Of a stretch of 64,000 nucleotides of DNA, positions 1 through 48,118 are shown piece after piece (within the stretch, counting starts at the first letter, position 1; every line of letters starts with the position of its first letter). The stretch is from Halorubrum halophilum (lineage in GTDB: Archaea; Halobacteriota; Halobacteria; Halobacteriales; Haloferacaceae). Below the pieces are notes generated by a model. That model did no database searches and was not told where the DNA came from. It worked only from the letters and a program-made list of their open reading frames with translations. Where the stretch lies: the NCBI RefSeq assembly GCF_000739595.1, contig NZ_BBJP01000022.1, forward strand, positions 1-64,000. Direction: 5' to 3'. Made by a program: the position numbers and the translations under genes.

Positions 1-417
1 GTTCTGTAAGCACCTGCGTGAGTTTTGGTAGGTTCATCAGGTGCGTATCCGGACAGCGGATGAATCAGGTTCCTGATTCATCCGCTTCACTCAGGACTAC
101 GTATCAGCTGCTGGACTCCTGAGCCAGAGTGGACAACTAGCGACTGTCCTCAATGTCGTACGTGGTACAAGTATTGCACCCGCCTGCAATGATTTTGACA
201 TCGTTATCCAACGCATCACGAGCGGATATTAGCACACGATGGAATCGGGCTGCAATCTTGTGGTCGTCACTCTGGAGCCCACAAGGATCGTCTTTCATAT
301 GTGTGTCAACTGTTCTAATCGTTTCAACGTGTCTTGGTACGTTTCTCATTGGTTGTTCAGAATAATTCTCAATCGGATGTGGTTTCAACTCCTACAGGCC
401 TTCTGGGTCAAAATCAG
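1..417. other. Intergenic stretch with a strong inverted repeat
   Basis: No convincing gene is seen here; the short reading frames lack haloarchaeal codon bias and recognisable motifs. The notable structure is the perfect inverted repeat at 56-85. The gene at 418-957 reads leftwards into this space, so part of it is that gene's 3' region. Confidence 0.5.
56..85. repeat. Perfect 14-bp inverted repeat with 2-base spacer
   Basis: The arms GCGGATGAATCAGG (56-69) and CCTGATTCATCCGC (72-85) are exact reverse complements around TT. So long a perfect palindrome could be a cruciform or hairpin, an operator for a dimeric protein, or a recombination site. It lies about 330 bases beyond the stop of the gene at 418-957, which is far for a terminator of that gene. 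Confidence 0.7.
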
Positions 418-957
418 CTAGTCAGCGTCGTTTCGGATCCGTTTGAGTGGTGCTTTGCAGTCTCGGTCCCGCTCCCACTGCTCAGGACTTTTGAGCTTAT
501 CCAGTACATACGGTAACCCATCTTCAAGCTGTAGTGAGTGTGCTCCGCGGACATTCTCGTCCATATAGATCGTCGTTTGTGATGCTGAATCCCATGAGAC
601 GGGACCATCGAACGTAGCGAAGACGGTGAACGGTACCAGAAGTGTCTCATCTCCTCTATCTAATGCGATCTTGTGGTCTGCGCTGAACAGCTGTAAGTAG
701 TCCTCGACGCTATCTGCTTCGGCTGTATAGACCCTCACATCGATACAACTCGGCTGTTCGTACGTCCCAAGGTGACCAATAGTGATTGAGGAAACGTGAT
801 CGAATTCATCCATCGCTTGTTCGATTACCGTTTCTAATTCGACCTCAACCACGGTCTCGTCCAACAGCCTCTCTATCGTTTCTTCAACAGTCTGCTCGTC
901 TTCTCGTGCGCGCTTCCTGAGTCGCAGTTCAATCGGATTTGCTATAGTTCGCGCCAT
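418..957 (-). CDS. Hypothetical protein with possible RHH-like N-terminus
   Basis: A 179-residue protein I do not recognise. The first ~35 residues (MARTIANPIELRLRKRARED, then a run rich in Glu and hydrophobics) resemble the strand-helix-helix of small antitoxin-like DNA-binding proteins, but the body (residues 40-179) is an acidic alpha/beta domain with no motif I can name. The start at 957 is followed immediately upstream by AT-rich DNA, as expected for a leaderless or short-leader haloarchaeal gene. No toxin-like partner is adjacent: the next gene leftwards is absent from the window, and 350 bases of non-coding DNA separate it from the neighbour on the right. Function unknown. Confidence 0.6.
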   Translation of the reverse strand: MARTIANPIELRLRKRAREDEQTVEETIERLLDETVVEVELETVIEQAMDEFDHVSSITIGHLGTYEQPSCIDVRVYTAEADSVEDYLQLFSADHKIALDRGDETLLVPFTVFATFDGPVSWDSASQTTIYMDENVRGAHSLQLEDGLPYVLDKLKSPEQWERDRDCKAPLKRIRNDAD

Positions 958-1310
958 TGCAAATGGGAAAATTACCCACCTTAAAAAAAGGGTTAGCCAT
1001 ATAGCCAGTTAGCAGGGGCAAAAACTAGCAAATCGGGGCTCGTAACCCGGTCACAGCGCATTAATATTTAAAATAGGTATTCCTGTACATATAGAATACT
1101 AAATACGAGTCGGCGATTGAATCTGGATAGTTGAGCTTTTCACCGATTCAATCAGGCCGCTACTAATCAGTTTCAGGAGATTCTGGAATAGAAATTCTAT
1201 TAGTTGCTACTATCTGGTAGGAACAGTCGCACCCAGAATGTTTATAAATTGCTGTGGCTGGGTAGAGAACCTATCTGACTCGGCTGCTGACCGAGTAGTA
1301 GTTCACGCGG
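958..1310. other. AT-rich intergenic space with short inverted repeats
   Basis: No gene seen. The stretch contains 9-base inverted repeats GATTGAATC (about 1114) and GATTCAATC (about 1144), and the small hairpin AATAGAA-A-TTCTATT near 1187-1201. AT-rich runs around 980-1000 and 1060-1100 would suit the promoter of the leftward gene at 418-957. Confidence 0.4.
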
Positions 1311-2294
1311 TCACCCGCTCGTCGAGCGCGTGTGATAGCTGGATCCAGGTTCAAATTCAGTAAGTTCCTGAATCCGGGCTTCGAGTTCCCCGATTTCTTC
1401 TCGAAGTTCTGCGGCTTCCTCGCCATCTGTAGCCGCGAGTTGATCTTTGAGACCTTGTAGACGCGTCTCCTTGCGCTCGTCATCAACCTCTGCTTTCCGA
1501 ACGTACTCACGTTCTTCGATTTCGTACACGTCGGACTCGCTCAACTCCGTTACTTCCAGCGCATCATCGACTTTGCTGCGATCAACGCCCAGCACGCGGT
1601 CACGATCGATGCCAGCTGCTTCAAGCGTCTCCAGCACTTCTTCGTCGTCTTTCAGTGATCGATTCCGACGCGTCGTCCGCTGGACAGCACCGAACGGGCC
1701 AGTAACTGGGCGGTCGTGATGCAGCCGAGTCAACAGTATGTCTGCCACGTCTTTCCGAAGCGTATCCGCATTGCGCTGGACATCCGAGAGCAACGTGTAG
1801 AGGTTGACCAGCCCAGTCGTCTCTAACTCTTCAAGCACGTCCACGTCGTGACGTTCAAGCGCATCAACCAGCAATAGTGCGTCCGCATACACGTCTAAGT
1901 CAGGTTCTGTCCGGTCAACCGACTCTCTCGCCGCCTCTTTCTCAAGCAGTTGGCTCGTCGTTGGCCCCTCTGTTTCGACGATTATCTCTTGCTCTCCATC
2001 AATTTCGAACCGTGGATGGAGACTCAGTACCGCCGGATACGGATCGGCATCGGGTGGGAGCCGATCAAGCTCAAATCCATCTGGTTCGTCACTTATGCGA
2101 CGGTACAGCGTTTCGAACTGGTCGCGCTGAAGGGGTCGCTGGTCATCTTTCTCGTCGAACTCAACAATAACGCGCTGTTGCTGCACGTCAGTAATACGGA
2201 ATCGCTTGTGTGACAGCGGCGTAATGAGCGTCGCTCCCTCAGAAAGCTCATCCAGTTCTTCGAGAAGCGTGTTCCACGAAACGCTGAATGACAT
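1311..2294 (-). CDS. Coiled-coil protein of the XPB-Bax1 cluster, unknown function
   Basis: A protein of about 327 residues (341 if translation begins at 2336). I prefer the Met at 2294 because the residues before it look non-coding and the following MSFSVSWNTLLEEL begins an ordinary globular segment. The N-terminal ~60 residues are strand-rich (KRFRITDVQQQRVIVEF), the middle is helical, and the last ~65 residues form a strongly charged coiled coil. I recognise no catalytic motif. It is the last of four genes reading the same way (XPB, Bax1, zinc-ribbon protein, this one), with only 78 bases to its upstream neighbour, so it is probably co-transcribed and may be an accessory factor of that module. 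Confidence 0.6.
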   Translation of the reverse strand: MSFSVSWNTLLEELDELSEGATLITPLSHKRFRITDVQQQRVIVEFDEKDDQRPLQRDQFETLYRRISDEPDGFELDRLPPDADPYPAVLSLHPRFEIDGEQEIIVETEGPTTSQLLEKEAARESVDRTEPDLDVYADALLLVDALERHDVDVLEELETTGLVNLYTLLSDVQRNADTLRKDVADILLTRLHHDRPVTGPFGAVQRTTRRNRSLKDDEEVLETLEAAGIDRDRVLGVDRSKVDDALEVTELSESDVYEIEEREYVRKAEVDDERKETRLQGLKDQLAATDGEEAAELREEIGELEARIQELTEFEPGSSYHTRSTSG

Positions 2295-2372
2295 ATCAGA
2301 CCCAACGACCTGAAGTGGTAAAATCCTACAGGCCACAGCTATCCCCTACTGCACGAGTAATTGTTTGACAGA

Positions 2373-2522
2373 TTACTGCGGCTGAACTGGTTCTTTGCAC
2401 TTGGGACACTCAGCGTACACCCGTTCCTCATTATTAACGACGTACTCGATCAGAATTGCGTTACGAGGGACAGGTAGCTCACAGAAGGGGCACGCACCAA
2501 GACTGGATGGTGCTTGTGACAT
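2373..2522 (-). CDS. Small zinc-ribbon protein
   Basis: A 49-residue protein starting MSQAPSSLGACPFC; a start at 2558 would add 12 residues. Two CxxC knuckles (CPFC and CPKC), about 31 residues apart, make a classic zinc ribbon, with VVNNEERVYAECPKC forming the hairpin between them. Haloarchaea carry many such mini zinc-finger proteins, some acting in regulation or as adaptors. It lies between the Bax1 gene and the coiled-coil gene on the same strand, so a role with the helicase-nuclease pair is plausible but not shown. Confidence 0.6.
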   Translation of the reverse strand: MSQAPSSLGACPFCELPVPRNAILIEYVVNNEERVYAECPKCKEPVQPQ

Positions 2523-2634
2523 GGAAAGGGGGAACTTGGAGCGTGTGACAGGTTCCAAGTTCCATTCTATGATTCGTGTTCTGGGCTAAAATAGCTCACC
2601 CAACCAAAGTGAAAGTGGAACGGAGAGAAAAGAT

Positions 2635-3981
2635 TCAGTTAGTCCTGACCGGCGTACTTGCGTGTTCTTCGGCTAATTCCACCACATCATACACATGGAT
2701 TCCTGACTTGAACCAGAGTACTCTATCTTCGGTCCCAGAAAAGTCATCAGCAGAACACTCCAGGCGCTCCGAAACAGCAACCAAGAGATGGTCAAGATTG
2801 GCTTCCTGTATCTTCGCTAGCTTCTCATCCAAGTACTCCGGCGTCCAGAATCCCACAACTTCCAGGATAGCTCGCCTGCCATCGGGATGCTCAAGCGCGA
2901 AATCGGGGATCATCACTTCAGCACCCAAGTCTAGCACGTCATCTTCTCTCACTAACTCCCAGTCCGTGTTTGCTCGCGCCCATTTCTGCGCAAGCGTCTG
3001 CTCCAGATCACTATCGAAATCAGTCCGTGCGCTATAGTGCGAGGATAACCCTGCCGTGTGATCCAACTCAAACGGGACTGTCTCGTTCGTAGTGTCGTCG
3101 TGCAAGATCTCTGCAGTCATCTCCCACCGATCACATAACGGAAGTGCAGGTAGGAAGTTCGCCATCCGGATCCCATACTTCCGGGATTGGGTGAACAGAG
3201 ATGCTGGCCCGTCAAGTACCGCTTCGTACCCGTCTGCAGAATCCGTATCAGGGACGCGGTTCCCGCCCGTGTCGATCGGGTAGATGCGATGCATCAGCCC
3301 GAACAGCTTGACGTAGCTGAACACGGTACTGAAATGGTCCCATACCCGGATCCGCATCCGTGACGCATCGTACAGCACCGCCTGTGCCAGTGCAAGGTTA
3401 TATCGCGTCAACAGCCACTCAACGGTGATCGTATCCTCTGCGTAGACTTCCTCGCTATTCCCCGTCAACCGTGTCGTCGACACACTATCATCCGACGCCT
3501 CGTAACTATCCACGACTTGATCCCCGAAGCGAACGAGCCGCTTGTTATCTTCGAGATCCGCATACATCCCCCGATAACACTCTTCCAGGGAAATCCCGAG
3601 CTGGTCAGCTACCGTACTGTAGACTTCCAATTGTTGCGTATCCTCTCCAAGTGTCGGCTGCCGAACGATCGGATACGACTCGTTCGCTTTCTCAAACAGT
3701 CGCTGTCGAATCTCTTGTGGGTCGGCTGCTGCGACAGTCTCGAATTCACACTCGTCTTGGAGCAACTTCGCCAGCCCTTGAACGATCTTGTAGTCTGTAT
3801 CTGCGATCGTCAACTGGTCAATCGTCTCCTCTAACTCGCCTTTCGGCTCGCCCACGTGCTCCCTGAAAATCTGAATCAATTCGGCAGTCGTCTCACGATA
3901 GCGCTCGTCGTCGGGATCGATGAACAGCGGCTGAATAGTCCCATCGCGTGTGCGTGTGCGAGCAAGATCAGCTGTCAGCAC
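2635..3981 (-). CDS. bax1: Bax1-like nuclease (DUF790), partner of XPB
   Basis: This 448-residue protein matches the archaeal Bax1 (binds archaeal XPB, DUF790) family in length and ends. The N-terminus MLTADLARTRTRDG is the usual family start. The C-terminal half holds a PD-(D/E)XK-type core: IPDFALEHPDGRRAILEVVG followed by FWTPEYLDEKL. In characterised archaea Bax1 is a structure-specific nuclease that binds XPB and cuts bubble or fork DNA in a repair-like reaction. The gene overlaps the downstream end of the XPB gene by 14 bases, so the two are translationally coupled, which strongly supports the assignment. Its place in an island rather than the core genome is unusual. Confidence 0.85.
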   Translation of the reverse strand: MLTADLARTRTRDGTIQPLFIDPDDERYRETTAELIQIFREHVGEPKGELEETIDQLTIADTDYKIVQGLAKLLQDECEFETVAAADPQEIRQRLFEKANESYPIVRQPTLGEDTQQLEVYSTVADQLGISLEECYRGMYADLEDNKRLVRFGDQVVDSYEASDDSVSTTRLTGNSEEVYAEDTITVEWLLTRYNLALAQAVLYDASRMRIRVWDHFSTVFSYVKLFGLMHRIYPIDTGGNRVPDTDSADGYEAVLDGPASLFTQSRKYGIRMANFLPALPLCDRWEMTAEILHDDTTNETVPFELDHTAGLSSHYSARTDFDSDLEQTLAQKWARANTDWELVREDDVLDLGAEVMIPDFALEHPDGRRAILEVVGFWTPEYLDEKLAKIQEANLDHLLVAVSERLECSADDFSGTEDRVLWFKSGIHVYDVVELAEEHASTPVRTN

Positions 3982-5389
3982 TCCCAGTCACCCCCTGGCG
4001 GCGATGTGATGAGACGTACTGTTCTTTCGTGCCCTCGGTGATGATCTCGTAGAGACGGGCTGGTTGGCGGTCGTCGGTGGGCCGCAGGATTCGGCCAAGT
4101 CGCTGGGCATACTGCCGTTTCGACGCGCTACCTGAAAGGATAATCCCGACGTTCGCCGCCGGCACGTCAATCCCTTCGTCAAGTACCTGCGACGTGACAA
4201 GCATCGAGTATTCACCCGTTCGGAACCGCTTCAGAATCTCCGTTCGCTCTTCTGTTTCCGTTTGATGGGTAATACAGGGCACGATGAATTCCTGGGAAAT
4301 CTCGTACGCGAAGTTGTTGTTCGCGGTGAAGATTATCGTGCGGTCCTCATAGTGTCGCTTGAGTAGGTTATCGAGCGTATCCAGCTTCTTTTCGGCGGTC
4401 CGGGCGATCTCCTCGGCGCGTTGCTTGGCAATTAACGCCCGCCGTCCCTGCGGATCGTACGACGTGCGCTTCAAGAACTCCGCGTATCCGTCTTCTTTCC
4501 AAATGTCGAAGTTATGAGAATCGACGTAGTCGCGGTAGATCTGATATTCTTCGTCGTACTGTTTCCGTTCTTCGTCGGTGAGATCAACTTTGAGATGAAT
4601 CGTTTCGTACTCGCTGAGATACTCGCCAGCGAGTTCATCTACCTCTTCCTCATAGACGACGGGCCCGATCAGCTCTTCTAGCACCTCGTGTTGTCCATCG
4701 GATCGCTCGTACGTAGCGGTGAGTCCGAGGCGATACGGGGCGATGGTCATCTCGGGAATCTGTTGGTAGGTCGGCGCAGGCAAATGATGAACCTCATCGA
4801 CGACCAGCAGGCCGAATTGATCACCGTACTCGTTGATATACCGATACGCGGAATCGTACGTCGTGACGGTAATATCTGTCACGTTGTGGCTGCCGCCGCC
4901 GAGGACGCCGACCTCGTCAGGGAGTTGGTCGCCGAAAGCGTTCGTGAGCGTTGCGTGCCATTGGTTCATAAGATCAATCGTCGGCACGACAACAAGAGTG
5001 CTGACGCCAGCGTCAGCGATGGCTTGGACTGCAAGGAACGTTTTCCCGCTGCCGGTCGGAAGGATAACGCTCCCACGGTGATCGTGGTCAATCCATGCTG
5101 CGAGGGCGGCTTGTTGGTAGTCGCGGGGCTCGATTGCAACGGTAGGCGTTAGGTCCAGGTCAGTATAGACCCGCGCCGCATCTTCGAATGGTTCGATAGT
5201 CGCTGTCGATTCATGAAGCGTTGCTTGTCCCCCGCTGTCAGCCTGCGCCCATGATCGCAGGGCTCTGTAATGATGCGCTCGTGCTCGATATTTGTCGACG
5301 CGGTCGTCCCACTCTGCATAAGGGACTGACCCAGGTGCATCTTCCAAGAGCAACGTCCCGTCATCGAACACGATACGCATTCCGTACAT
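3968..5389 (-). CDS. xpb: XPB/Rad25-type superfamily 2 DNA helicase
   Basis: A 473-residue SF2 helicase. Visible motifs are Walker A PTGSGKT (residues 111-117), the DEVH Walker B box (198-201), LGLTATYERSDG as motif III region, and motif VI QRLGRILRP near residue 440. The N-terminal ~85 residues form the damage-recognition-like domain of archaeal XPB. It is a 3'-5' DNA translocase that unwinds or remodels DNA for its Bax1 partner, encoded directly downstream with a 14-base overlap. A Met three residues in (5380) is an alternative start. As haloarchaea normally carry a core XPB, this copy may be a second, mobile version, perhaps used in repair or defence of the element. Confidence 0.88.
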   Translation of the reverse strand: MYGMRIVFDDGTLLLEDAPGSVPYAEWDDRVDKYRARAHHYRALRSWAQADSGGQATLHESTATIEPFEDAARVYTDLDLTPTVAIEPRDYQQAALAAWIDHDHRGSVILPTGSGKTFLAVQAIADAGVSTLVVVPTIDLMNQWHATLTNAFGDQLPDEVGVLGGGSHNVTDITVTTYDSAYRYINEYGDQFGLLVVDEVHHLPAPTYQQIPEMTIAPYRLGLTATYERSDGQHEVLEELIGPVVYEEEVDELAGEYLSEYETIHLKVDLTDEERKQYDEEYQIYRDYVDSHNFDIWKEDGYAEFLKRTSYDPQGRRALIAKQRAEEIARTAEKKLDTLDNLLKRHYEDRTIIFTANNNFAYEISQEFIVPCITHQTETEERTEILKRFRTGEYSMLVTSQVLDEGIDVPAANVGIILSGSASKRQYAQRLGRILRPTDDRQPARLYEIITEGTKEQYVSSHRRQGVTGSADS

Positions 5390-5592
5390 AGCTTAAGATG
5401 GCCGCAGTACTTGTCCTTGCTGGACAGAAAGAGGTGCAACTTCCCCCCAACATTGCGGGTGAATGAAAGTGAAAGAAAATTAACCGAAATCAGGAAATTC
5501 GAGAATCATCACACTGGAGTACAACTCATGTTAGCTACTCTGCGTAGCTACACCTTCTATTGAACTACCTACCGCGCTTTAGCTGCCTATGA

Positions 5593-6624
5593 TTAGGCTT
5601 CATCACGATCAGAGGACCTATCAATGGCGTCGAGATCGTCCAGCGTGTGTCTGCTCATATCTCCCGATCTCTGGCCAAAATTCGTCTGTACGGTTAAGCA
5701 GCCCTCTGTTTTCTCGTATTCAATCCTCTCGCTCCGCGAGGCGACCTGTTCAAACTTGCTTCTTGCCGCCTTCTGTGTCGTGCCTTTACCCAGAACAGCA
5801 ACGGCATCTGCTGGTGTATATCGAATGTTTGATTTTGGTTTGCTGGTTGATTTCGCAGACTCGATAGCATCTTTCAAAATTATTTTAATCTCGTCATCTT
5901 CGTCTCGTAAGAACTGAAGCTTGTCCCGTGGATCCTGATCAGAACAATCAACCTTGTCGGTGGATATGAACAAACTTGGATTCTCGGGATGATATGTGTA
6001 GTCTAGCTCTGCAAGCACACGGGGGAGATATTCTTCTCGGGCATAATCTCCAGAATTAATACCACTTGCCTCTTCATCAACCGCTTGGTTGAAGTCCTCA
6101 AGCAGAAATTCGCCGGGAGTAACTGCTTCAATGATTGACTCAGTACGGCGTGTTTTCGCATCTTTATCAGATGTTTTAGCCTCAACGAAGGCTTCAATTC
6201 GATCCAACCGATCCGCTACTTTTGATTCAGTCTGGTTACCACACGCGTATGCCCACATAACTGATTCAACAATGTCGCGTGCGTAGGTCACATCCGCGGC
6301 GTTTTGTGCTTCCTTTTTTACCTTGTCGCGTATCTCTGCGTGTATCCGGTATCCGACCACTACAGTCTCTCCTGATCGGTTCGGAGATGATTTTTTATTT
6401 TCTCCTTGTCTCTCACCCAGAGAGCGTGCCAACTCGTGGGTCCGGTCTACCAGTTTAGATAGTTCTCCCTGCCCAATTACTACGCGTAATTCACGTTCCA
6501 ACTCTGTTCCGGCATACGGCTCTAAGGTTCCGAATTTTTCCAGTATCCTGTTCTCATAGCGCTGTTTTATTCGGGAGTCGATCCTGAGACTGAGTGAGTC
6601 ACGGGGTTGGGATGTTCCTGTCAT
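5593..6624 (-). CDS. Predicted DNA-binding protein, haloarchaeal, unknown role
   Basis: A 343-residue basic-acidic protein I cannot name. The N-terminus DSLSLRIDSRIKQRYENRI and a second segment ETVVVGYRIHAEIRDKVKKE each look like the strand plus helix of a ribbon-helix-helix fold, so it may bind DNA through two RHH-like units. Residues 260-330 (YTPADAVAVLGKGTTQKAAR) resemble a helix-turn-helix. It is divergent from the small RHH gene at 7314, and the 690-base space between them contains repeated motifs. This arrangement resembles plasmid replication or partition loci, but no initiator or ParA motif is seen, so the role stays open. Confidence 0.55.
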   Translation of the reverse strand: MTGTSQPRDSLSLRIDSRIKQRYENRILEKFGTLEPYAGTELERELRVVIGQGELSKLVDRTHELARSLGERQGENKKSSPNRSGETVVVGYRIHAEIRDKVKKEAQNAADVTYARDIVESVMWAYACGNQTESKVADRLDRIEAFVEAKTSDKDAKTRRTESIIEAVTPGEFLLEDFNQAVDEEASGINSGDYAREEYLPRVLAELDYTYHPENPSLFISTDKVDCSDQDPRDKLQFLRDEDDEIKIILKDAIESAKSTSKPKSNIRYTPADAVAVLGKGTTQKAARSKFEQVASRSERIEYEKTEGCLTVQTNFGQRSGDMSRHTLDDLDAIDRSSDRDEA

Positions 6625-7313
6625 AATTCTCGGACTGTAACCGAAGCGGTTGCACTTTTGGGTATATTATAACCAATACGATTACAGTATGTTGTTGTTG
6701 TTGAGGTTGACTTTGTCGCAGCTCTAGTCGTTTGGCTTCGGGGCCGCCGTCTAAAGCGTGTGTTAGCGACTCTAACGAGCGACTTCTCTGATAGGGCTGC
6801 GCCTTTCTGCTCTTGGTCGAACCGACACGGGGAAAATAAAAATTCTCTTCGTCCGTCTACTACCAGCTTCTGAAGCATTCGTGCCGACGCTTCCCTACGA
6901 CGTAACAGCGGTATCGTCAATTTCAGCTATTGGTTCTCATGGATCATAAAAATGGTTTGTAAAATGACTTTCCGACTTGGAACTGTTGGGAATCGGATCT
7001 ATCCGTGAGTGACTTTCCGACTTTATACAATAGTTCAGGAGAATTTGTGAGTATGCAGAGTATATGGAATACCAGACCTCTGGAAGGTGGTCTTCGACCT
7101 CGACCCCACGGGGTCACACGTGAATGTATGCAGTTGCCCCGATGTATGCACGATTTCACCAGCGAGGGTAGAGATGTGTGCATAGATCGAAGGATGTGTT
7201 TCCGTGATCGCGCTGCTGGCCAACCTGGAACTGCTGGCACTATTATAATCAATTGGCCTTCAGTCACCGTAGAACCACGGCGAAAACCCCACCGTATAGA
7301 CATCTGTATATAA
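6625..7313. promoter_or_regulatory. Divergent intergenic region with direct repeats
   Basis: This 690-base space separates two divergent DNA-binding candidates. It holds two copies of TGACTTTCCGACTT (6965-6978 and 7010-7023, 45 bases apart) and a run of short repeats of the form ATGTRTGCA near 7123-7131, 7142-7150 and 7174-7182, with a further TATGCA near 7052. The right end carries TATATAA just before the start at 7314, so that gene's promoter overlaps or closely precedes it. The repeats could be operators for the flanking proteins or iterons of a former origin. Confidence 0.45.
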
Positions 7314-7574
7314 ATGACTGACAGAACCACTCTCAGACTCAGCGATGAGCGGAAACGCAAGCTTGATCGCGCCAGCAAAATCGTCGCCGGTGGAGCGGAT
7401 GATGACCCGCCGATGAGCGATGTGATCGACGCAGCACTGACGCACCTCATCGAGAGTGAAGACAATCTTCAGAAGGTTCGTGACCAGTACCCGCCCCAGG
7501 AAATCAAGGATTGCTGTAACACATCCGTGATTGGGTTACGGTATCGGACGAGTATTGACTCGAAATGGCGATAG
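7314..7574 (+). CDS. Small RHH-type DNA-binding protein
   Basis: An 86-residue protein beginning MTDRTTLRLSDERKRKLDRA, the strand and first helix of a ribbon-helix-helix fold, followed by a second helix PPMSDVIDAALTHLIES. Haloarchaeal genomes have many relatives of this length (I think of the DUF7386 type, from memory only), usually ending in an LRYRT-like tail as here. Such proteins bind operators as dimers. It has no toxin-like partner. It faces away from the larger gene at 5593-6624, and both may use the repeats in the shared upstream space. Confidence 0.65.
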   Translation: MTDRTTLRLSDERKRKLDRASKIVAGGADDDPPMSDVIDAALTHLIESEDNLQKVRDQYPPQEIKDCCNTSVIGLRYRTSIDSKWR

Positions 7575-7754
7575 CTAGTACTTCAAATCCTTTGACTCTC
7601 GGTTCCTGACCGACTCAGGCGTCTCCTGATCATATGTTTGTACTTGACATTACAGTTATTCAAATCGCGCCATACGGCCACCCCACCGATCACGAAACCG
7701 GCGGCATGTCCGCCAATAATCTAGTATGGGTCGAAGTACGGCCCGGTCAAGGGA

Positions 7755-10700
7755 TCAACGATCACCTGTAACAGCGCTACGATCTGCAAGTTTTCCCCAC
7801 ACCTGAATTCGATGTTCATAAGGCCAGAAAAGTCTCCGCAACCAACTCATCGTGTCTAACATTAACTCTTCAGCCGCTATCTGTCCTTCTGTCTGTTTTA
7901 CGATCCATATTAGCTGAGGGAATACAGTCTGATACGCAGCACTATCGATAGTTGAACTCTTTCTCCACGCTGTCAAGACTGTAGCTAATGCATCCTCTTC
8001 TGATAGATCCAACAGGGCCTTAGCAAGGGCTTCAAATCCTGGTCCGCCGATCCACCAGCTCATCAGATCACGTTCTGCAATGACTTTCATTAGAAGGTTC
8101 ACAGCATCTTCTGATCCTTCCCGATCTGCTAGAACCCGAGCTAACGGGGCTGCTGCTACTGGTTCATACCGATAACTCCTCGCCTGCAGCAGTTTCCCTG
8201 CATAGCGTAGTTCATCCGTCGTGAAATCTTGAAAATCTTCCTCTGAAAGTGGATTTTCTTCTGAACAGTCGGAGAGTAACCCATGCATTTCCTCATGATC
8301 CTCAGGAAGTTCTTGCTCCTCATCAGATTCTATTCCATCAGATGACTCTTCTTCTTCGACATGGATATTCTCCGGAATACTAACCTCATGAGTCTCTGCG
8401 AGTGTCTCAAGAGTCTCCGCCAAGTCCTCACTTACTCCTTTATCTACGTATTCTCCTTTGTTCATTAGCACAAGTGATTTGATAACTAAATCATCCCAAT
8501 CGTTATCTGCTGCAATTTCTGCAGTTCTCCCGAATATTTGCACCTTTTTATCAGTATATTCACTTCGAAGTACCTTTGCTCGCTCTGCGTCGATCATACC
8601 AGCTAGCTCGCTTTGGGAAATTCCGTGCGGGTTGTCTAAACGCCAATCGCGGAGTTTGTTTATCGTGGTTTGGTTAGATGCCCCTTCGAGAGCTGAATGG
8701 AAATCAATAACATCCTCGTCTAGCAGATCAGTCAAGAACATACCCTCATAGTGCCTAGTCTCTTTTCCGTCAGTCAATTCGTGAAGTAGTCCTGCCCAGT
8801 TGACTAACTGGATCGCAGTACCTATGTGACGATCCCAGTCGCCGTCCACAATCTCCTGAAATCCTTTCCAAACATCATTCAAGAAAACATCTTTCCGGTA
8901 CCCGTAACGGAAACAGCGTTCTATCGCGCTGTCGAAATAATAATCAGCGTATTCAATATATCCAGCCTCAGCCGCGTTAAATGCTAGGTCAATTAGTGCT
9001 CTTGTTGGTGGTTCTTCATCGGGTGGTCGTTTCAAAACCTTCTCAAACTGTTCGTCTAAAGCTGCGGGTAACATCTCATCCGGATAGGTTCCAACAAGTT
9101 GCCAAGAGACCGTGGGCAACAGATTCTCGGTCTCACCGTGGGTCTCCTTAGCAAGTTCGTGGACTCGTTGTACACGAGCTGTTGCTCCTTCTTCAACCAC
9201 GATCTCGAATTCCTTCACAGCAGCTTCTACAGATTTCCTATAACTCCAGTGCTCACTGGGAGACACGGATTCGTCAGCTAATGATCTATTATTGAAGCAC
9301 TCTTCAAGGAAATCGAGAGTCGCATCAACCCATTGCTCTGATTCATCGGGAGATACTCGCGTTGTTGCTGCTCCCACCAATGCAATAAACTGGTGTAACT
9401 TTGGATGGTCAGAAGATATTCCTTCTACTGAAGAAAGTACCTCATTCGGGGATTCATCACAGGTTGCGAGGATTGCTCCAATATAGTAAGCCTCACTAAA
9501 TCTCGATTCATTTTCCGTCGGACTTCGCTTCGGTTCTTCAAGCCGAAGATTATCGATGATCTCCATAATCTTATCTTCTGGGCCGCCACATAGAAGCAGT
9601 GTATGTAGCCCAGCAATCGACAGATCGGACAATGAAGGCGCATTAGCAAGAAGCTCTTCTCGCCACGATTCTGGGAGTTGCTGACCAATACCCTCACAAG
9701 CCTCAAAAGCCACTAAGGTATCTTCAAAAAGCCAATCGGGCGGTTCACTCTGATAATTAAGCAGGTCCGGATGTTGACGGACAGCTGCAAGCACTTCACG
9801 AGGGAAGTGCTCCCCTGTGTCGACGCGGCGGCTTTGTTCCGCCAGATCCCAAAACTCGTCTGGATGTAGTAGGATAGCTCCTAGTTCAAAATAGGCTTCT
9901 GGATCCCAGCTTGGTTTTTCAGCCTCTCGATAGTCCTCTTCCCACTCTTTCAGCCATTCGAGTTCGATCTCTTCTTCCCACTCTTGGGCAAATTGATGCA
10001 TTGCTGAAAGTGCCTCTTCTGTACCACCACCGTATTCCCGTATCTGGTCAACTAACCGTATAGCGGTATCACGTTCGCCACGTGCTGTATAGAAAGCCAG
10101 ACGGTCTGTATCGTCGGCATATATATTTAGCATATCACGTGTGACCCCACCTAAGATAGTGCAATCAAAAGCTGTCGTATAGTCACCATCCCGTAGGGAA
10201 GCATCAAATGCTAGTTCGATCGCTTCGAGGACCCGGTTTACGTAAACGCCATTTCGCCACCATTGCAGCACATTATCAAGGGAGACTAGATCTTTGAGAG
10301 CCTCACGCCCAGGACCGTTTTCTGCATGGTACGTAAGACTATCTAACCTATTGGGGATCTGTTGACATCGCTCAAGTAAATAGTCGAATATATGCCTATG
10401 TCCCCCCTCTATTTCATCCGATTCAATTTGATCTAATGTAAAGGACCGGAAACTATCATGAAACACCCTTAGTCGCCCATCGTCAACTTCATCAATAACA
10501 TGAGATAGTGGTATCTCACCAAGTGAAAGTTTTTGCTGAATCCAGGGAAGATCAATAAGATCAGCAAGAATATCAGCATGAAGACCTAGTGGATTGAGCG
10601 CGATCAGAGTCGCTGCATCCCGTTCGTGAGGGCGTAGTGGCTCCCATACCGATTCATAATACTGCTCAAGTTCCCCATCGACATCAGATGCATCGTTTAG

Positions 10701-12188
10701 AGCAGATTCGAATCCATCTTCTCTATTACCCTCGAAGGCCACCGCCTTGCGAAGAAGGTGAGAGAGGATAACCGGAAGACCGCCTGAAACGGCTCTCACT
10801 CGATCAACCAAAGCAGCAGTTGTCGTAACATCATTCTCGTTAAGATAATGGGTGATTTCACTTTCATTCCATTCGGGAACGGTTATTGTTTCACTTACTC
10901 GCAGATCAGTGTGTATCTCGTGAGAAAGCGGTCGACTCACTAGTAACAACGATAACGGAGAAGGAAAGTCAAGCATAGCAAGTTCTTCGAGTACTGTCCC
11001 CTCAATCCGCTCACCGTGAGTGGTATCCCCAAATGACCGCAAAGCATGATCAAGCCCGTCAATAATGATGAGCGGCTGTTGTTCTTCGCTATTTGCCCAA
11101 CTGGCCACGCTGTCAATGTATTCCTGAAGTGCTTCAGTTCCCGTCCAGACGGGAGTCACAGTTCCGTCAGTAAATGCCTCTGGAAACGTATTATGAAGCT
11201 GTGCAGCCAATTGGTGTCGAAACCAAGCAGGATCGTTCCTTTTTTTCTCTATGTGTTCTGCGTCATCAGGAATATACAGGAAAAACCGCAGTGTCCGCTC
11301 ATCCGTACCTTCTGACCAGTATCGATGTAGAAGTTCGATTCCAGTCGACTTCCCAGTTCCTGGTCCCCCTTCAATTAATAAACGATCAGTTGTCCCATCA
11401 ATCTGCTCTAAGTCTTGCACCCACTGGGGTTCGATGTATCCCTCTTGAAGAGGGAATTGTTGAGGTATGTCTGGAGTAGGAATATATCCTAGCCTTCGAA
11501 CAATATCTTCCCGCGTAAGCCGCGAAATAGAAGAATGATTACGACTCCATCTCGCAAGATCTACAGCGTCTTTGACGAGCGTCGTTGGATTACCAATCTC
11601 CGGATTCTCTAGCTCATCAAAAATCGGGGTGATCTTCTTTTCAATCAGCCTAACTAAATCCGTGTCTCGTATGGTTTCAGCGAGTTCTTCATCATCAGCG
11701 GTATCAATTCCTGGAAGACCAAGGACGAACTCGATCTCGGTTCCGGGGGACACTTCTCCAGCATCATTAGCTAATTCTTGGGCTGGGAATTCGAGATCAT
11801 CAAAGAACGATATTTCTCTCTCCTCATCAGCAAAGTTGATGTCCGGACCTGCCTCTTCACGATGCGACGTTAGAATAACAAACCGGGATCCTTCCTCTGC
11901 AGAAAGTCGGTCTTGCGCTGAGTCAACGAATTCGTCTATATGGAATTCTGAGGATGTGTTTTCCAAATCGCTCGAAGTTAGTCGTTGGCCTGGCCGGTTT
12001 TTTATCTGAAAACAAATTTGCGCACCGTCCTGTTCAAGGACTAAATCATCAAATTTATCTCCTGATTGTAAAGCATCTTCAATAGCTACCGCTTCCGCGT
12101 CTTCGAGTAATACTGAAAGGATTGCAATGCCGCCTATAGCGTCTTGAAATGTATATCCTCTGGCCGCCGGAGCCAGACCAGTTGACAT
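7755..12188 (-). CDS. Avs-like antiviral STAND NTPase with N-terminal PD-(D/E)XK nuclease
   Basis: About 1,477 residues from the preferred start MSTGLAPAARGYTFQDAIGG; the frame stays open to 12434, but that extension has no domain character. Residues ~10-110 look like a Cap4/DUF4297-type nuclease: a helix with GG, then D47/D48 and the QIK triad (61-63). Residues ~265-560 form a P-loop NTPase with Walker A GGPGTGKS (274-281) and Walker B PLIIIDGLD (372-380), typical of STAND proteins. The rest, ~900 residues, is helical and repeat-like, as in the TPR-type sensor arms of Avs proteins. In bacteria Avs proteins sense phage proteins with this arm, oligomerise and cut DNA. A defence role here is inference from architecture; it stands alone, as many Avs genes do. 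Confidence 0.75.
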   Translation of the reverse strand: MSTGLAPAARGYTFQDAIGGIAILSVLLEDAEAVAIEDALQSGDKFDDLVLEQDGAQICFQIKNRPGQRLTSSDLENTSSEFHIDEFVDSAQDRLSAEEGSRFVILTSHREEAGPDINFADEEREISFFDDLEFPAQELANDAGEVSPGTEIEFVLGLPGIDTADDEELAETIRDTDLVRLIEKKITPIFDELENPEIGNPTTLVKDAVDLARWSRNHSSISRLTREDIVRRLGYIPTPDIPQQFPLQEGYIEPQWVQDLEQIDGTTDRLLIEGGPGTGKSTGIELLHRYWSEGTDERTLRFFLYIPDDAEHIEKKRNDPAWFRHQLAAQLHNTFPEAFTDGTVTPVWTGTEALQEYIDSVASWANSEEQQPLIIIDGLDHALRSFGDTTHGERIEGTVLEELAMLDFPSPLSLLLVSRPLSHEIHTDLRVSETITVPEWNESEITHYLNENDVTTTAALVDRVRAVSGGLPVILSHLLRKAVAFEGNREDGFESALNDASDVDGELEQYYESVWEPLRPHERDAATLIALNPLGLHADILADLIDLPWIQQKLSLGEIPLSHVIDEVDDGRLRVFHDSFRSFTLDQIESDEIEGGHRHIFDYLLERCQQIPNRLDSLTYHAENGPGREALKDLVSLDNVLQWWRNGVYVNRVLEAIELAFDASLRDGDYTTAFDCTILGGVTRDMLNIYADDTDRLAFYTARGERDTAIRLVDQIREYGGGTEEALSAMHQFAQEWEEEIELEWLKEWEEDYREAEKPSWDPEAYFELGAILLHPDEFWDLAEQSRRVDTGEHFPREVLAAVRQHPDLLNYQSEPPDWLFEDTLVAFEACEGIGQQLPESWREELLANAPSLSDLSIAGLHTLLLCGGPEDKIMEIIDNLRLEEPKRSPTENESRFSEAYYIGAILATCDESPNEVLSSVEGISSDHPKLHQFIALVGAATTRVSPDESEQWVDATLDFLEECFNNRSLADESVSPSEHWSYRKSVEAAVKEFEIVVEEGATARVQRVHELAKETHGETENLLPTVSWQLVGTYPDEMLPAALDEQFEKVLKRPPDEEPPTRALIDLAFNAAEAGYIEYADYYFDSAIERCFRYGYRKDVFLNDVWKGFQEIVDGDWDRHIGTAIQLVNWAGLLHELTDGKETRHYEGMFLTDLLDEDVIDFHSALEGASNQTTINKLRDWRLDNPHGISQSELAGMIDAERAKVLRSEYTDKKVQIFGRTAEIAADNDWDDLVIKSLVLMNKGEYVDKGVSEDLAETLETLAETHEVSIPENIHVEEEESSDGIESDEEQELPEDHEEMHGLLSDCSEENPLSEEDFQDFTTDELRYAGKLLQARSYRYEPVAAAPLARVLADREGSEDAVNLLMKVIAERDLMSWWIGGPGFEALAKALLDLSEEDALATVLTAWRKSSTIDSAAYQTVFPQLIWIVKQTEGQIAAEELMLDTMSWLRRLFWPYEHRIQVWGKLADRSAVTGDR

Positions 12189-12572
12189 CTCTTTAACCCT
12201 ACAATCGATTGTTGATAAAACCCCAGTTTCCACAGGGTGAGTACTGATTTGACGATACGACATCGCCTTGATTATGAATCCTGAATTCCTACACTTTGTA
12301 GCGTAGCCGAAGTCCTGGATTCCCGGAAGGGTGTTCCCGGTTAAGATCATGTCTGAGTCAGTTCGATCAGTTACTGGGTCCACAAAATGTCCCCGATTAA
12401 CTAATGATGCGCCAGATACTCGGTGGTTCGTCACCTCAGGCTGGATAGCAGTCAGTAGTCATATCCCAACCTTCCTCGAAATGTGATTCGAGCGAACGGC
12501 GCGCCGGGTTCAGCAATCTCATACAAGTTCAAACGTCTCATCAACAATCCTCTCTACAAAAACGAATGGTAG

Positions 12573-12917
12573 CTATTCGTTGCAGGCTGTGAATTCAGCA
12601 GGTCTCTCTGGGTGCCCATCCAGCCCCAGATTCCAGAGTTCCGTCATATCCACCATCATACCGACGGTCATTAGCTGCTCCGTTGCTTCCTGAAGATTAG
12701 AGACTTTCCGTTCTCGTAGCCCCCAGTAATCATCAGTCCTGCTCCGGCAGGAAATGCGATTTCGAGCGCTATCGATTCGAATCTGACGGCCTTCTGGATG
12801 ATCGATGACGATGTCGTGGCGCTGGTCTGGATGACGCGCTGGATCCCATGGTTCGTCAACACACTCAATGAATGACTCATATTCCGAGGTTGTGTATGAA
12901 GTGGGATGAACGGTCAT
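12573..12917 (-). CDS. Small hypothetical protein
   Basis: A 114-residue acidic protein beginning MTVHPTSYTTSEYESFIECV. It has an alternating strand pattern in the middle (HDIVIDHPEGRQIRIDSARN) and a C-terminal helix. I see no catalytic or metal-binding motif and do not recognise a family. It is the last gene of the island before tRNA-Arg and reads towards the Avs-like gene, with 384 bases between its stop and that gene's preferred start. That gap contains only the open but featureless extension of the Avs frame and AT-rich DNA. A companion role is possible but unsupported. Confidence 0.5.
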   Translation of the reverse strand: MTVHPTSYTTSEYESFIECVDEPWDPARHPDQRHDIVIDHPEGRQIRIDSARNRISCRSRTDDYWGLRERKVSNLQEATEQLMTVGMMVDMTELWNLGLDGHPERPAEFTACNE

Positions 12918-13203
12918 AGGTGTCGAGCTTATTGGTCCCAGACGAATGAAAAGGCGTGTATATCGAACCCAGTAGGCAAATCACGGAATGTGTTCCGAGA
13001 GAGTGAGTGATGGTCAGACCACTTGTGTCTCGCACGAACTCCCGTACGATACTTGATTCAATCATCAGCTTACGCCGACAAGCTGGCGCGCGCGCCAGAT
13101 GATCCAGTAGTGGCGGCACATCCAACGACCCAACTATTATGCCCGATGCGCGTGAGTTTGGATGTACGCGAACCGCCGGACGGCACCGGCCTCATCGGGA
13201 AGC

Positions 13204-13224
13204 GTTCGATCATCGAACGAAATC
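13204..13224. promoter_or_regulatory. 21-bp near-palindromic motif beside tRNA-Arg
   Basis: The core TTCGATCATCGAA is palindromic around one base and is followed by CGAAATC. A 20-of-21 match lies at 48018-48038, at a similar distance from the 3' end of tRNA-Lys (74 versus 81 bases). Both copies are inside the islands next to the tRNA attachment gene. Possible roles are a recombinase arm site, a conserved element end, or a tRNA 3' processing or termination signal. Confidence 0.5.
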
Positions 13225-13297
13225 AAATTCGGCAGCCAAAGTCGCTTTATAAGTGACCCGCCGCTGTCTGTCGGATGTTGGTCGTTCGAAAATCGGA

Positions 13298-13372
13298 TGG
13301 GCGCTGCAGGATTTGAACCCGCGACAGCTTGGTCCGAAGCCAAGCACTCTATCCAGACTGAGCTAAGCGCCC
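13298..13372 (-). tRNA. tRNA-Arg (anticodon TCG)
   Basis: Read on the minus strand, the 75-base segment folds into a full cloverleaf: acceptor stem GGGCGCT paired with AGCGCCC, D-arm TAGCTCAG, anticodon stem CTTGG/CCAAG around loop CTTCGGA (anticodon TCG), and T-arm with loop TTCAAAT. No CCA is encoded and no intron is seen. Its 3' end faces the AT-rich region 1, making it the likely attachment gene of that island. A TTAACA element about 30 bases upstream (near 13402) is a candidate box A. Confidence 0.95.
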
Positions 13373-19125: not shown

Positions 19126-20235
19126 ATGAACGATCTACGAACCGGACTCAGCTACGGGGACGTGCTGCTCGTGCCGCAGCGGTCGCCGGTCGACAGCCGG
19201 AGCGACGTGGACCTCTCGACGCGGCTCACGCCGAATGTCGAGCTGAAGACGCCGCTCGTCTCGGCGGCGATGGACACCGTCACGGAGGCGGATCTGGCGG
19301 TTGAGATCTCCCGCGCCGGCGGGATCGGCGTGCTGCACCGATTCCTCACCGTCGACGAGCAGGCGGCGCAGGTCGAGGACGTGGCCGCGGCCGGCGAACG
19401 GGTCGCCGCCGCGGTCGGCATCAACGAGGACTACGTGGCCCGGAGCGCCGCGCTCGTCGCGGCCGACGTGGACGCGCTCGTCGTCGACGTGGCGCACGGC
19501 CACCTCGAACGGACGATCCGGGCGGTCGAGGAGATCGCCGAGGAGTTCCCGGAGACGGATCTGGTCGCCGGCAATGTCGCCACGCCCGCGGGCGTCGAGG
19601 ACCTCGCGGCCGCCGGCGCCGACTGCGTGAAGGTCGGTATCGGCCCCGGCTCGCACTGCACCACGCGGAAGGTCGCCGGCGCGGGCGTGCCGCAGCTGAC
19701 CGCGGTCGACGACTGCGCGACCGCGGCCGAAGACCTCGACGTGACGATATGCGCCGACGGCGGGATCCGCACCTCCGGCGACGCGGCGAAGGCGCTGATG
19801 GCCGGCGCCGACACCGTGATGCTCGGGAGCCTCTTCGCCGGCACGGCGGAAGCGCCCGGCGCGGTCGTCGAGGTCGAGGGAACGCGCTACAAGCGGTCGC
19901 GCGGGATGGCGACGACCGCCGCCGCCGAGGACCGCGACGACAAGGGCACCGACGTGGTCGCCGACGAGGGCGTCGAGGCGCTGACGCCGTACAAGGGGCC
20001 GGTTGCGACGGTCACCGAGGAGTTCTGTCAGGGGATCCGCTCGGGGCTGTCGTACTGCGGCGGTCACACCATCGAGCGGGCTCGCGACCGGGCCGAGTTC
20101 GTCCGCGTCGCGCCCGGCGCGAAGGAGCGCGAAGGGTTCCACACCGACGACGACTGGGAGGGGATCAGCGTAGACAGCGAGACGGAGCGAGTCGCCGATT
20201 CGACCGGCGGGTCGGCGGCCGAAAGCGACGACTGA
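19126..20235 (+). CDS. GuaB-family (IMPDH/GMP reductase) enzyme without CBS domains
   Basis: A 369-residue TIM-barrel enzyme. [13 protein letters not shown] and [16 protein letters not shown] are the family start, and the catalytic loop is [13 protein letters not shown] with C178. [12 protein letters not shown] and a C-terminal PYKGPVATV motif follow. The two CBS domains inserted after residue ~90 in typical IMP dehydrogenases are missing, and the overall length fits GMP reductase or a minimal IMPDH. The His before the catalytic Cys (usually Ile or Val) is unusual. It acts in guanine nucleotide metabolism, but direction (IMP to XMP, or GMP to IMP) is not settled here. A TTTATC element sits at 19092, about 34 bases before the start. 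Confidence 0.8.
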
Positions 20236-21801: not shown

Positions 21802-21913
21802 ACCGGATCGGCACGCACCGGTTCAAAGTGGGTTTCGGTTCGAAGCGCTCGACGGACCGGACCGGGGTGGAGTCGCCGTCGGACTTATGAGCCGTCCGGA
21901 CGGCCGTACGGCC

Positions 21914-22027
21914 ATGGGCGACCCAGTCTGCGATCGCCGGTTCTGTCCGGAGTGTGACCTCGCCGTCTCGTGCGCCGACGACCTCTGCCCGGAGTGCGGT
22001 GCGCCGATTGATGGCGCCGACGCCTGA
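21914..22027 (+). CDS. Very small zinc-ribbon protein
   Basis: A 37-residue protein, MGDPVCDRRFCPECDLAVSC followed by ADDLCPECGAPIDGADA. Two CPEC knuckles form a zinc ribbon, one of the many sub-50-residue zinc-finger proteins of haloarchaea, some of which act in regulation. A Met at 21887 would add nine residues. It is the last gene before the tRNA-Lys element and has core-like base composition. Confidence 0.6.
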   Translation: MGDPVCDRRFCPECDLAVSCADDLCPECGAPIDGADA

Positions 22028-22224
22028 CGGATGTCGATCGCTGACCGATGCAAAAATACAGCTACATGTCAGTGGAAGCCGGAGCGAGATGTTAACAGCG
22101 GACCGAGCACCTGGTCGCTTCACCGTATCGGCGTCGCTCCGAGATTCAGTGTACGGGCCGGGCGCGAATACGTTCTACGTAAGTCGCCGGGGTACAGCGG
22201 TTCCCTGGCGCTTACGCAGAAGCC

Positions 22225-22259
22225 TGTGCCGTCTGTGCTACTGCGCACAGACAGGCACA
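22225..22259. repeat. 14-bp hairpin inside the split tRNA remnant
   Basis: TGTGCC (22225-22230) pairs with GGCACA (22254-22259), and GTCTGTGC (22231-22238) pairs with GCACAGAC (22245-22252), leaving one bulged A and a six-base loop. It lies four bases before the 22-base attL repeat. It may be a recombinase or excisionase binding site, or the end of the inserted 95-base segment. Confidence 0.65.
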
Positions 22260-22262
22260 ATA

Positions 22263-22284
22263 AACACGCGACCGACGGATTAAG
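22263..22284. repeat. attL core, 22-base direct repeat
   Basis: Identical, in the same orientation, to 48137-48158 inside tRNA-Lys(CTT). It covers the T-loop to the anticodon loop of the tRNA. Together with the integrase gene that starts 65 bases further on, it defines the left end of the ~25.9 kb element. Confidence 0.88.
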
Positions 22285-22348
22285 CAAGATCTGCTCCTCC
22301 CGGACGAGGTACTCTGTCTGCCCCCACGGTTGGCATCGCACACGAGCC

Positions 22349-23347
22349 ATGCCAGAACTTGAACCTCTTGAACCAGAACGAGGCGTAGAGCTTTACCTCA
22401 AACACAGGGCAGACGATTGTGCTGACTCGACTCTCAACGCACACCGACTTCGGCTCAAACACCTACTCCGATGGTGTGATGAGCGTGATATCACCAATCT
22501 CAACGAGCTCACTGGACGACGTCTCCATGAGTACCGCCTCTGGAGAAAAGCAGAGGGTGACCTCAATCGCGTGTCTGTTCGGACACAGATGTCTACCCTC
22601 AGAGCCTTCCTCGATTTCTGCGCGCAGATCGACGCCGTTGAGATGGGACTCAAGGAAACCGTTGATGTTCCAGAGCTCGATGACGGCGAAAACGCACGAT
22701 CAGTACACATCGATAACGATCACGCAGAACAGATTCTGTCTAAGCTTGCTAAATATGAGTATGCGAGCCTTCGGCACGTTCTCATCCTGTTGCTCTGGAA
22801 AACGGGAGTGAGAACCGGAACTGTGCGCAGCATCAACGCAGACGATGTCGATAGTGACGACGGATACATCGAAGTCAGACATCGACCAGAATATGGAACA
22901 CCACTGAAGAACAAATCCTCTGGAGAGAGGTTCATCGCAATCTCTGAGGAGACAGGACGGATCCTCACTGACTGGATAGAGGAGCAACATCCAGGCACGG
23001 AAGATGAACACGGTCAGACACCACTGCTAGCCACTAACTATGGCCGAACCAGCCGAAGTAATATCCGGAAAAATTCGTACTGGGTCACAAGACCGCAGTT
23101 CATCGGAGAGGACTGTCAATGCGAGGTTGAGGATCATTCGTATGACGAAGTCCACCAGTGTGAAGACGCGGTAAGTCCCCACGCGCTTCGAAGAGGATCC
23201 ATCACCCACCATTTACGATCTAATGTGCCTCGTCCAGTCGTGTCCGAACGAGCAAACGTCAGCGGAGACGTACTTGAGACGCACTACGACCAGACCAGTT
23301 TGGAGGAGCAAATGAATCTGAGGAGGGATCACTTAGACAACATCTAA
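22349..23347 (+). CDS. int: Tyrosine recombinase / XerC-like integrase
   Basis: A 332-residue site-specific recombinase starting MPELEPLEPERGVELYLKHR. The N-terminal SAM-like DNA-binding domain covers residues 8-95. The catalytic domain shows R155 in KTGVRTGTVR, a Lys in GTPLKNKSSG, the HxxR box SPHALRRGSITHHL (H278, R281), and the nucleophile in LETHYDQTS (Y313, preceded by H312). The frame is open upstream, but the sequence before 22349 covers the attL region and is not coding. It lies 65 bases from the attL repeat and reads into the element, the usual layout for tRNA-integrated haloarchaeal elements. It should catalyse recombination between attL and the copy in tRNA-Lys. Confidence 0.92.
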   Translation: MPELEPLEPERGVELYLKHRADDCADSTLNAHRLRLKHLLRWCDERDITNLNELTGRRLHEYRLWRKAEGDLNRVSVRTQMSTLRAFLDFCAQIDAVEMGLKETVDVPELDDGENARSVHIDNDHAEQILSKLAKYEYASLRHVLILLLWKTGVRTGTVRSINADDVDSDDGYIEVRHRPEYGTPLKNKSSGERFIAISEETGRILTDWIEEQHPGTEDEHGQTPLLATNYGRTSRSNIRKNSYWVTRPQFIGEDCQCEVEDHSYDEVHQCEDAVSPHALRRGSITHHLRSNVPRPVVSERANVSGDVLETHYDQTSLEEQMNLRRDHLDNI

Positions 23348-47428: not shown

Positions 47429-48118
47429 GTCATCTGACTTTCAGCCGAAAATGAATAAAACTGATTCCATAATATCCACTCCGAACAACCCATCTCTTTC
47501 AAAACCAACAGACAGAACCAACCGCTTGATGTGTGATCTGTACTGACTGCAGCAAGTCAGAATGTATCCCTTGCTTACGATTTCAACAGAGCCGGTATCT
47601 TCAATCGCTATTGGAGACCTGTCTGATAGACATCGAATTTACCTGGGATGTGGGATATCTATCTACAGTAGTTATACTCTCTGGTCACGATCTCGCCAGC
47701 TGTCGCGGTCGTGCTGGGTGGTTGCGGAAATTCCTATTTGCTGGCATCTCCACGACATGCGTAGATGTGGCGTCGCTGATATCGAATCGGACTAATCAGA
47801 ATTAACCAACAGAAGAGCTCTGTAATCACTATCGTTGGTTAATCAGTTGTCCACACCAATTTACCGACTGTGCTGTTGAGTAGAAATTTGGGCTAGACCA
47901 ATCCTTGCTCGGTTCAGAACCATCTGGTGGCCTCCCACACAGTATGTTGAATATGGAACAAATTTATGCTGTAGTGCGCGTCAACTATGACCTAGATGCC
48001 ACACGTGAGGAGGCACCGTTCGGTCATCGAACGAAATCTACCCGCGAATGCGCCGGATCTGAGTCGATCAGGTCGCCGTCATGCGATCAACACGACTCGG
48101 AATAGTTCGGTGAAGAAG
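47429..48118. other. Non-coding right end of the element
   Basis: No confident gene in 690 bases. The short rightward frames at 47533-47805 lack motifs. The right part becomes GC-richer towards tRNA-Lys and contains the 21-bp palindromic motif at 48018-48038. Confidence 0.45.
48018..48038. promoter_or_regulatory. 21-bp near-palindromic motif beside tRNA-Lys
   Basis: TTCGGTCATCGAACGAAATC preceded by G; it matches 13204-13224 at 20 of 21 positions. It lies 81 bases from the 3' end of tRNA-Lys, inside the element. Confidence 0.5.

Follow-up and report, generated by a model that had tools for sequence, protein, structure and literature searches.

A predicted double-hairpin attachment arm with a second copy of its tRNA-Lys target at the left end of an SNJ2-type island in Halorubrum halophilum

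The attC sites of integrons are imperfect hairpins with bulges, the structure of which is kept as the sequence drifts, and recombination uses a single strand that is folded and has extrahelical bases. Tyrosine integrases that target the 3' part of tRNA genes include those of the SSV type and those related to the integrase of the betapleolipovirus SNJ2 (IntSNJ2). In a review of archaeal tyrosine recombinases, SNJ2 has a 14-nt att core located at the 3' end of a tRNA, SNJ2-type integrases are delimited by an identity of at least 30% over 60% of the protein, and the sufficiency of a 14-nt, stem-loop-free SNJ2 att site for recombination is left open (PMC8371274). Accessory proteins Orf2 and Orf3 are encoded next to the integrase in members of this family, though not in all, and in three pleolipoviruses with annotated attP the core lies 3' of the integrase gene. 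The literature searched, which included the accessible text of PMC8371274 and PMC7911831 and had the SNJ2 key paper and most subscription journals outside its reach, holds no description of a hairpin-bearing att layout at a haloarchaeal tRNA.

The stretch of DNA analysed here (64,000 nt of contig NZ_BBJP01000022.1 of Halorubrum halophilum, hereafter the window) contains an integrated island with the following features.

22100-22153, plus strand: ancestral chromosomal flank, the degenerate end of a tRNA-linked repeat unit, matching flanks joined to intact tRNA-Lys in genomes of the genus
22154-22167, plus strand: attL core, 14 nt equal to the tRNA-Lys 3' end (discriminator, acceptor and 3' T-stem) in antisense; two other element types have this core too at their left junctions
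22168-48118, no strand: integrated island of about 26 kb, low in G+C and with defence cargo (composition and Pfam)
22168-22262, plus strand: 95-nt double-hairpin arm of the putative attP, with a structural homologue in Halorubrum sp. 48-1-W
22173-22221, plus strand: hairpin 1, predicted by folding, 20 bp with a tetraloop, a conserved T.T mismatch, a 1x1 mismatch, one bulge and a G.T pair
22225-22259, plus strand: hairpin 2, predicted by folding, 14 bp with one bulged A
22263-22284, plus strand: second tRNA-Lys block (anticodon to start of the T-loop), antisense, in the arm of the element
22285-22348, plus strand: spacer from the block to the integrase start
22349-23347, plus strand: tyrosine integrase of the SNJ2 type, 332 aa
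47979-48118, plus strand: right end of the island, putative other attP arm, with conserved counterparts in 7 further genomes of the Halorubrum group, each next to the 14-mer or what is left of it
48119-48132, plus strand: attR core, now the tRNA 3' end
48119-48192, minus strand: intact tRNA-Lys(CTT), the target gene

As in SNJ2, the integrase carries the Phage_integrase and Phage_int_SAM domains (Pfam PF00589 and PF02899) and the island has a 14-nt core at a tRNA 3' end; its identity to the SNJ2 integrase is 39.8% over 99% of the protein, which places it within the SNJ2 type. Unlike in the three annotated pleolipoviruses, the core precedes the integrase gene, at a distance of 195 nt on its 5' side. 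Downstream of the gene are only small unassigned ORFs. A double-hairpin arm and a second tRNA block are further differences from SNJ2 as the accessible text describes it. The tRNA 3' half is targeted as by SSV-type (suicidal) integrases, but the gene is complete from 22349, unsplit by integration and with the att site outside it, which excludes that type.

Comparison of the two junctions within the window bears out a preliminary description of the left one as two exact blocks of tRNA-Lys, of 14 and 22 bases, in the right order and orientation: 22154-22167 is identical to 48119-48132 (14/14) and 22263-22284 to 48137-48158 (22/22), both in direct orientation and in the order that they have in tRNA-Lys(CTT). 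It was also accurate in that the first block starts with the complement of base 48119, the discriminator, and that four tRNA bases, the TTTG of the T-loop (48133-48136), are exchanged for exactly 95 bases, 22168-22262. The 14-bp hairpin that it reported is real (22225-22259), but its larger neighbour of 20 bp (22173-22221) had been missed. The whole 95-nt insert folds at -53.7 kcal/mol (z -7.5), a value matched by none of 200 shuffles. Thirteen of the 14 core bases occur four times in the whole 3.68-Mb genome, two of these being the att pair; the 22-mer has matches only at the left junction and in tRNA-Lys. The blocks are thus no coincidental matches. Rfam covariance models run against 21900-22700 gave no match for the insert and one sub-threshold snoRNA match outside it (E 1.8), and a known structured RNA family was ruled out for the insert on this absence.

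In order to separate chromosome from element, the flank with the 14-mer (22120-22167) was searched in 52 genus-level genomes, where it was found repeatedly, and 20 loci were fetched. At 11 of these the flank, or a close relative of it, is joined via TTTG to an intact tRNA-Lys without the 95 bases. The remaining loci were three with the 14-mer followed by other DNA, four tRNA-Lys(TTT) neighbourhoods, the window itself and Halorubrum sp. 48-1-W (G033; NZ_QMIM01000044.1), which has a sister island at the 14-mer. The order there is 14-mer, two hairpins, CGCGACCGACGGATTAAG and integrase, the protein being 90% identical to that of the window, and other stretches of the two islands match at 75-84%. 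Its left flank is the one that adjoins the tRNA-end unit in genomes G048 and G021, and the left flank of the island in the window is the end of such a unit; judged by these flanks, the two islands are separate integrations beside different flanks with one arrangement. Because this arrangement is the same in both, the hairpins and the 22-mer are element DNA, and because the island leaves an intact tRNA gene at its right end, exchange must have taken place within the 14-mer. The same 14-nt core is shared by two other element types, the integrases of which are about 35-42% identical to that of the window. On these comparisons, the left flank with the 14-mer is ancestral, and the 95 bases and the 22-mer travel with the element as one putative attP arm. 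The preliminary description was right in placing a displaced 3' end of tRNA-Lys at the island end remote from the gene, but the two blocks are not a single split remnant, the 14-mer being the att core and the 22-mer a part of the attP arm of the element. Two other candidates were rejected. A crossover in the anticodon block would put the hairpins into the tRNA gene, yet the gene is intact; an extension of the integrase coding sequence through the arm would draw on an open frame of 439 aa in the window versus 380 aa in G033, where it closes within the arm.

The two islands were then aligned. Identity is 59% at fourfold sites of the integrase (82/138), 62% in the 95-nt insert (59/95 aligned bases) and 79% in the spacer (46/58), while the tRNA block is identical at 18/18 positions, with P of about 1e-4 at a neutral identity of 0.59, or 0.015 if the identity of the spacer is taken as the baseline. 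The hairpin arm of G033 folds at z -6.7, and over the 34 hairpin pairs of both sequences 95.6% of pair cells are paired, a value that falls to 36-45% when the hairpin partners are slid. Ten pairs have changed on both sides, none shows a one-sided standard change and three are unpaired in one of the two sequences. Both sequences share the T.T mismatch, the 1x1 mismatch and the bulged A, which argues against simple palindrome correction. For this 95-nt version, represented by these two sequences only, the alignment shows hairpins persisting through paired changes and a tRNA block held constant.

A covariance model of the 95-nt form (R2) matched in 2 of 293 genomes, once each; a third, weak match in G313 lies in coding DNA, by eye purA. 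The search of haloarchaeal genomes for the insert, which the preliminary description had proposed in view of possible recurrence beside other att sites, returned no dispersed copies. The exact split pattern is present in 3 of 391 genomes, the third (G177) being a tandem tRNA-end repeat beside an intact tRNA. A further model (R1) matched at 20.8 bits in G044 and G035, in what we read as a dihydroorotase-like ORF, and at 20.9 bits in G034, where tblastn for the integrase was negative. Scans of viral contigs and a search of plasmid DNA gave no matches.

A wider view was obtained by scanning 70 regions upstream of related integrases with 49 tRNAs from the genome of the window. A split tRNA copy was found in 8 of the 70 (decoys 0, 0 and 0 of 70): of tRNA-Lys in the window, G033 and G096, the last from another genus, of tRNA-Arg(CCT) in G126 and G123, of tRNA-Arg(CCG) in G086, and of tRNA-Tyr in G148 and tRNA-Val in G017, where the copy is not at the core nearest the integrase (loci L036 and L205). 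A further 44 regions gave three matches (decoys 0, 2 and 0 of 44), two of them duplicates of counted loci and the third a new copy, of tRNA-Phe, in G039, where the block measures 28 nt. The insert is 95-98 nt long in the Halorubrum pair and 52-57 nt in the others.

A strict double hairpin directly after the core was detected in 7 of 54 core-bearing regions (shuffles: mean 0.275, maximum 1), the 54 being those among 104 unique N-free regions left from 114 after 8 duplicates and 2 N-containing regions had been dropped; the 114 are the best integrase matches (30 loci, 40 fetched, 14/20 regions and 30 loci) and hence a non-random sample. The tRNAs at which carriers are situated include those for Lys, Arg and Phe. 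Mismatches break the stems of the window, of G033 and of the G056 locus at tRNA-Phe, none of which is therefore among the seven. The other 47 relatives with a clear core failed this strict test, and nine core-bearing relatives folded directly showed nothing unusual after the core (z +1.3 to -1.8); the hairpins are therefore not essential to the enzyme family, since most core-bearing relatives are without them. The tRNA block is degenerate or absent in L190, L175 and L266. In the SNJ2-proper group, of 30 loci only 3 yielded a core on one side and 2 on the other, which is uninformative for hairpins. On an integrase tree that includes one very long row (L294) and on which the carriers G056 and L278 were placed by eye, carriers fall in several separate lineages, with at least 5 changes. 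In all cases counted beside an integrase the hairpins stand on the coding strand, with the core on one side and the integrase on the other. Of 9 genomes, 3 contain the Arg-type hairpin, each in one copy, and in a pair of this type only two-sided changes are seen (3 of 17 pairs, 0 one-sided), although the shuffle control is weak here, 55 of 500 shuffles reaching the same. Altogether, these scans show the predicted layout recurring with other tRNA targets.

The best explanation of the locus, which we hold to be probably correct with some reserve, is that it is the attL end of an SNJ2-type island in tRNA-Lys(CTT), and that its attP arm consists of two hairpins and a copy of the target tRNA acting as folded DNA. 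Recombination would take place within the last 14 nt of the tRNA gene, with all DNA to the right of these belonging to the element, and the attP arm would comprise two tandem hairpins and then a copy of the anticodon, variable and T-stem segment of the target, after which comes the integrase gene. Once extruded or single-stranded, the hairpins would remove about 80 of the 95 bases and set core and tRNA block about 11 bases apart, near the 4-base spacing in the tRNA gene. Because this distance nears that in the tRNA gene, the folded attP would resemble attB, whereas in linear duplex the two parts are far apart. Such folding could gate or orient integration and excision; folding of the hairpins in the cell, contact with the integrase and a role in direction or timing are features of the model inferred from the layout. 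Against this reading count the many relatives that have a clear core but no such hairpins, the loci in which the block has decayed or is missing, the position of the split copy in L036 and L205, and the small number of sequences, two, for the 95-nt version. The likeness to integron attC, or to folded phage attP, is in a works-like sense only, with imperfect bulged hairpins beside the exchange site of a tyrosine recombinase; unlike in attC, exchange falls outside the hairpins, a duplex tRNA gene serves as the target and the fold is a predicted one.

In the main rival reading the hairpins work at the RNA level. Transcription of the integrase gene would begin at a promoter in the opposite end of the circular element, and the mRNA would carry the hairpins as a structured 5' leader, present in the excised form only and regulating integrase synthesis. 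The constant position of the hairpins between core and integrase on the coding strand agrees with this, as do the absence, by eye, of a TATA-like box from the 64-nt spacer and a G.U pair on the plus strand kept in both sequences. However, the 13 paired changes are without G-U intermediates, which is unusual for RNA, and the lack of one-sided changes among these 13 leans weakly toward DNA rather than RNA. The leader would moreover be long, although haloarchaeal mRNAs are mostly leaderless, and the tRNA block would have no role in it. We regard an RNA leader as unlikely.

Functionless palindromes, arisen by chance or by template switching and kept paired by quasi-palindrome correction, would account for the purely two-sided changes and for a sequence drifting at an approximately neutral rate, and it does count against folded attP DNA that two-sided-only change can also arise by template-switch correction of imperfect palindromes. 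Correction should, however, erase imperfections, yet three of them (T.T mismatch, 1x1 mismatch and bulged A) have been retained, and double hairpins occur in the same place beside the cores of different tRNAs, so that this neutral origin appears quite improbable.

The preliminary description had offered two origins for the 95 bases, neither of which agrees with these results. Insertion of a small mobile element into the remnant, later than the integration itself, would fit an insert in the T-loop with four bases replaced, compact, palindromic and MITE-like, but the independently integrated sister island in G033 has the same hairpin pair and displaced block at the same site beside a different flank, and both the 95-nt form, searched in 293 genomes, and the Arg-element hairpin, searched in 9, are without the multiple dispersed copies of a MITE or of an IS200/IS605-derived palindrome; we give it very little credence. 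Two successive integrations in the same tRNA, with the 95 bases as the leftover of the first element, are more improbable still, since elements and tRNA-end units are indeed seen in tandem at these sites but real tandems (G044 and G007) keep one 14-mer per junction, the window has two 14-mers and not three, and G033 repeats the exact arrangement.

Under the folded-attP reading, the odd insert would be part of the landing site of a mobile defence island, with a layout recurring at other tRNA genes in salt-loving archaea. It points to an SNJ2-type group in which conserved stem-loops and another copy of the target tRNA adjoin the core, beside matched relatives without them, and because such relatives with and without hairpins exist, the sufficiency of a stem-loop-free SNJ2 att site becomes testable by comparison and deletion. 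The layout also suggests what such integrases may read in the tRNA gene beyond its 3' end. A broader proposal, which is speculative and in our estimation rather unlikely, is that of a structure-gated attP class in haloarchaea, in which folded hairpins would join the core to a copy of the target anticodon arm, mimic the tRNA gene and only then recombine, as an archaeal, tRNA-based counterpart of folded attC; the tandem 110-136-nt units of core, hairpin, hairpin, block and core that occur next to tRNAs would then be integrase-less miniatures.

Several other arrangements were seen around these sites. At L301 (G039), three tandem tRNA-Phe 3' ends lie 421 to 100 nt upstream of the integrase, the first unit having core, two hairpins and an exact 28-nt block and the unit beside the integrase having core, two hairpins and a decayed block. 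The tRNA-Lys 3' flanks in the genus, and in G177 outside it, carry units of about 80-127 bp made of a tRNA 3' end, palindromes and an inverted T-arm (L003, L004, L006, L008, L009, L012, L015, L107 and L098, with L026 and L027 near tRNA-Lys(TTT)), with as many as four in tandem in G042 (spacing 111), while G051 has a tandem of two unlike kinds. In appearance they are tRNA-linked repeats (tandem tRNA 3'-end units) or miniature att-flanked elements. The left flank of the island in the window is the end of such a unit and the units carry palindromes too; the 95-nt insert differs from them in adjoining an integrase gene and in not being a tandem unit. In two tandem integrations, L164 (G044, 11902-12056) and L160 (G007, 19369-19526), the right end of the present island type is joined via the 14-mer to the left ends of two other element types. 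G007 also contains a related island body (77-78% over the longest stretches), without the integrase of the window within the 20 kb read.

The right end of the island likewise folds well (48024-48118, z -4.4), and a block from it (TGCGATC..ACGACTCGG..GTTCGGTGA) is common to 8 Halorubrum-group genomes, that of the window included, in several of which it is a fossil without the rest of the element. By Pfam, the cargo at 24048-47428 comprises a trypsin-like protease, a GIY-YIG protein, an NrS-1 type primase-polymerase domain, an McrBC pair, a UDG-like protein (below cut-off), a 1314-aa Eco57I-type methylase and an AAA_15 ATPase. A second low-G+C island, at 1-13297 of the window, encodes a 1559-aa NACHT protein and an XPB-like helicase and ends at tRNA-Arg(TCG) (13298-13372); contig C94 of this genome carries an integrase that is preceded by a tRNA-Arg(TCG) core and may represent the other end of that island.
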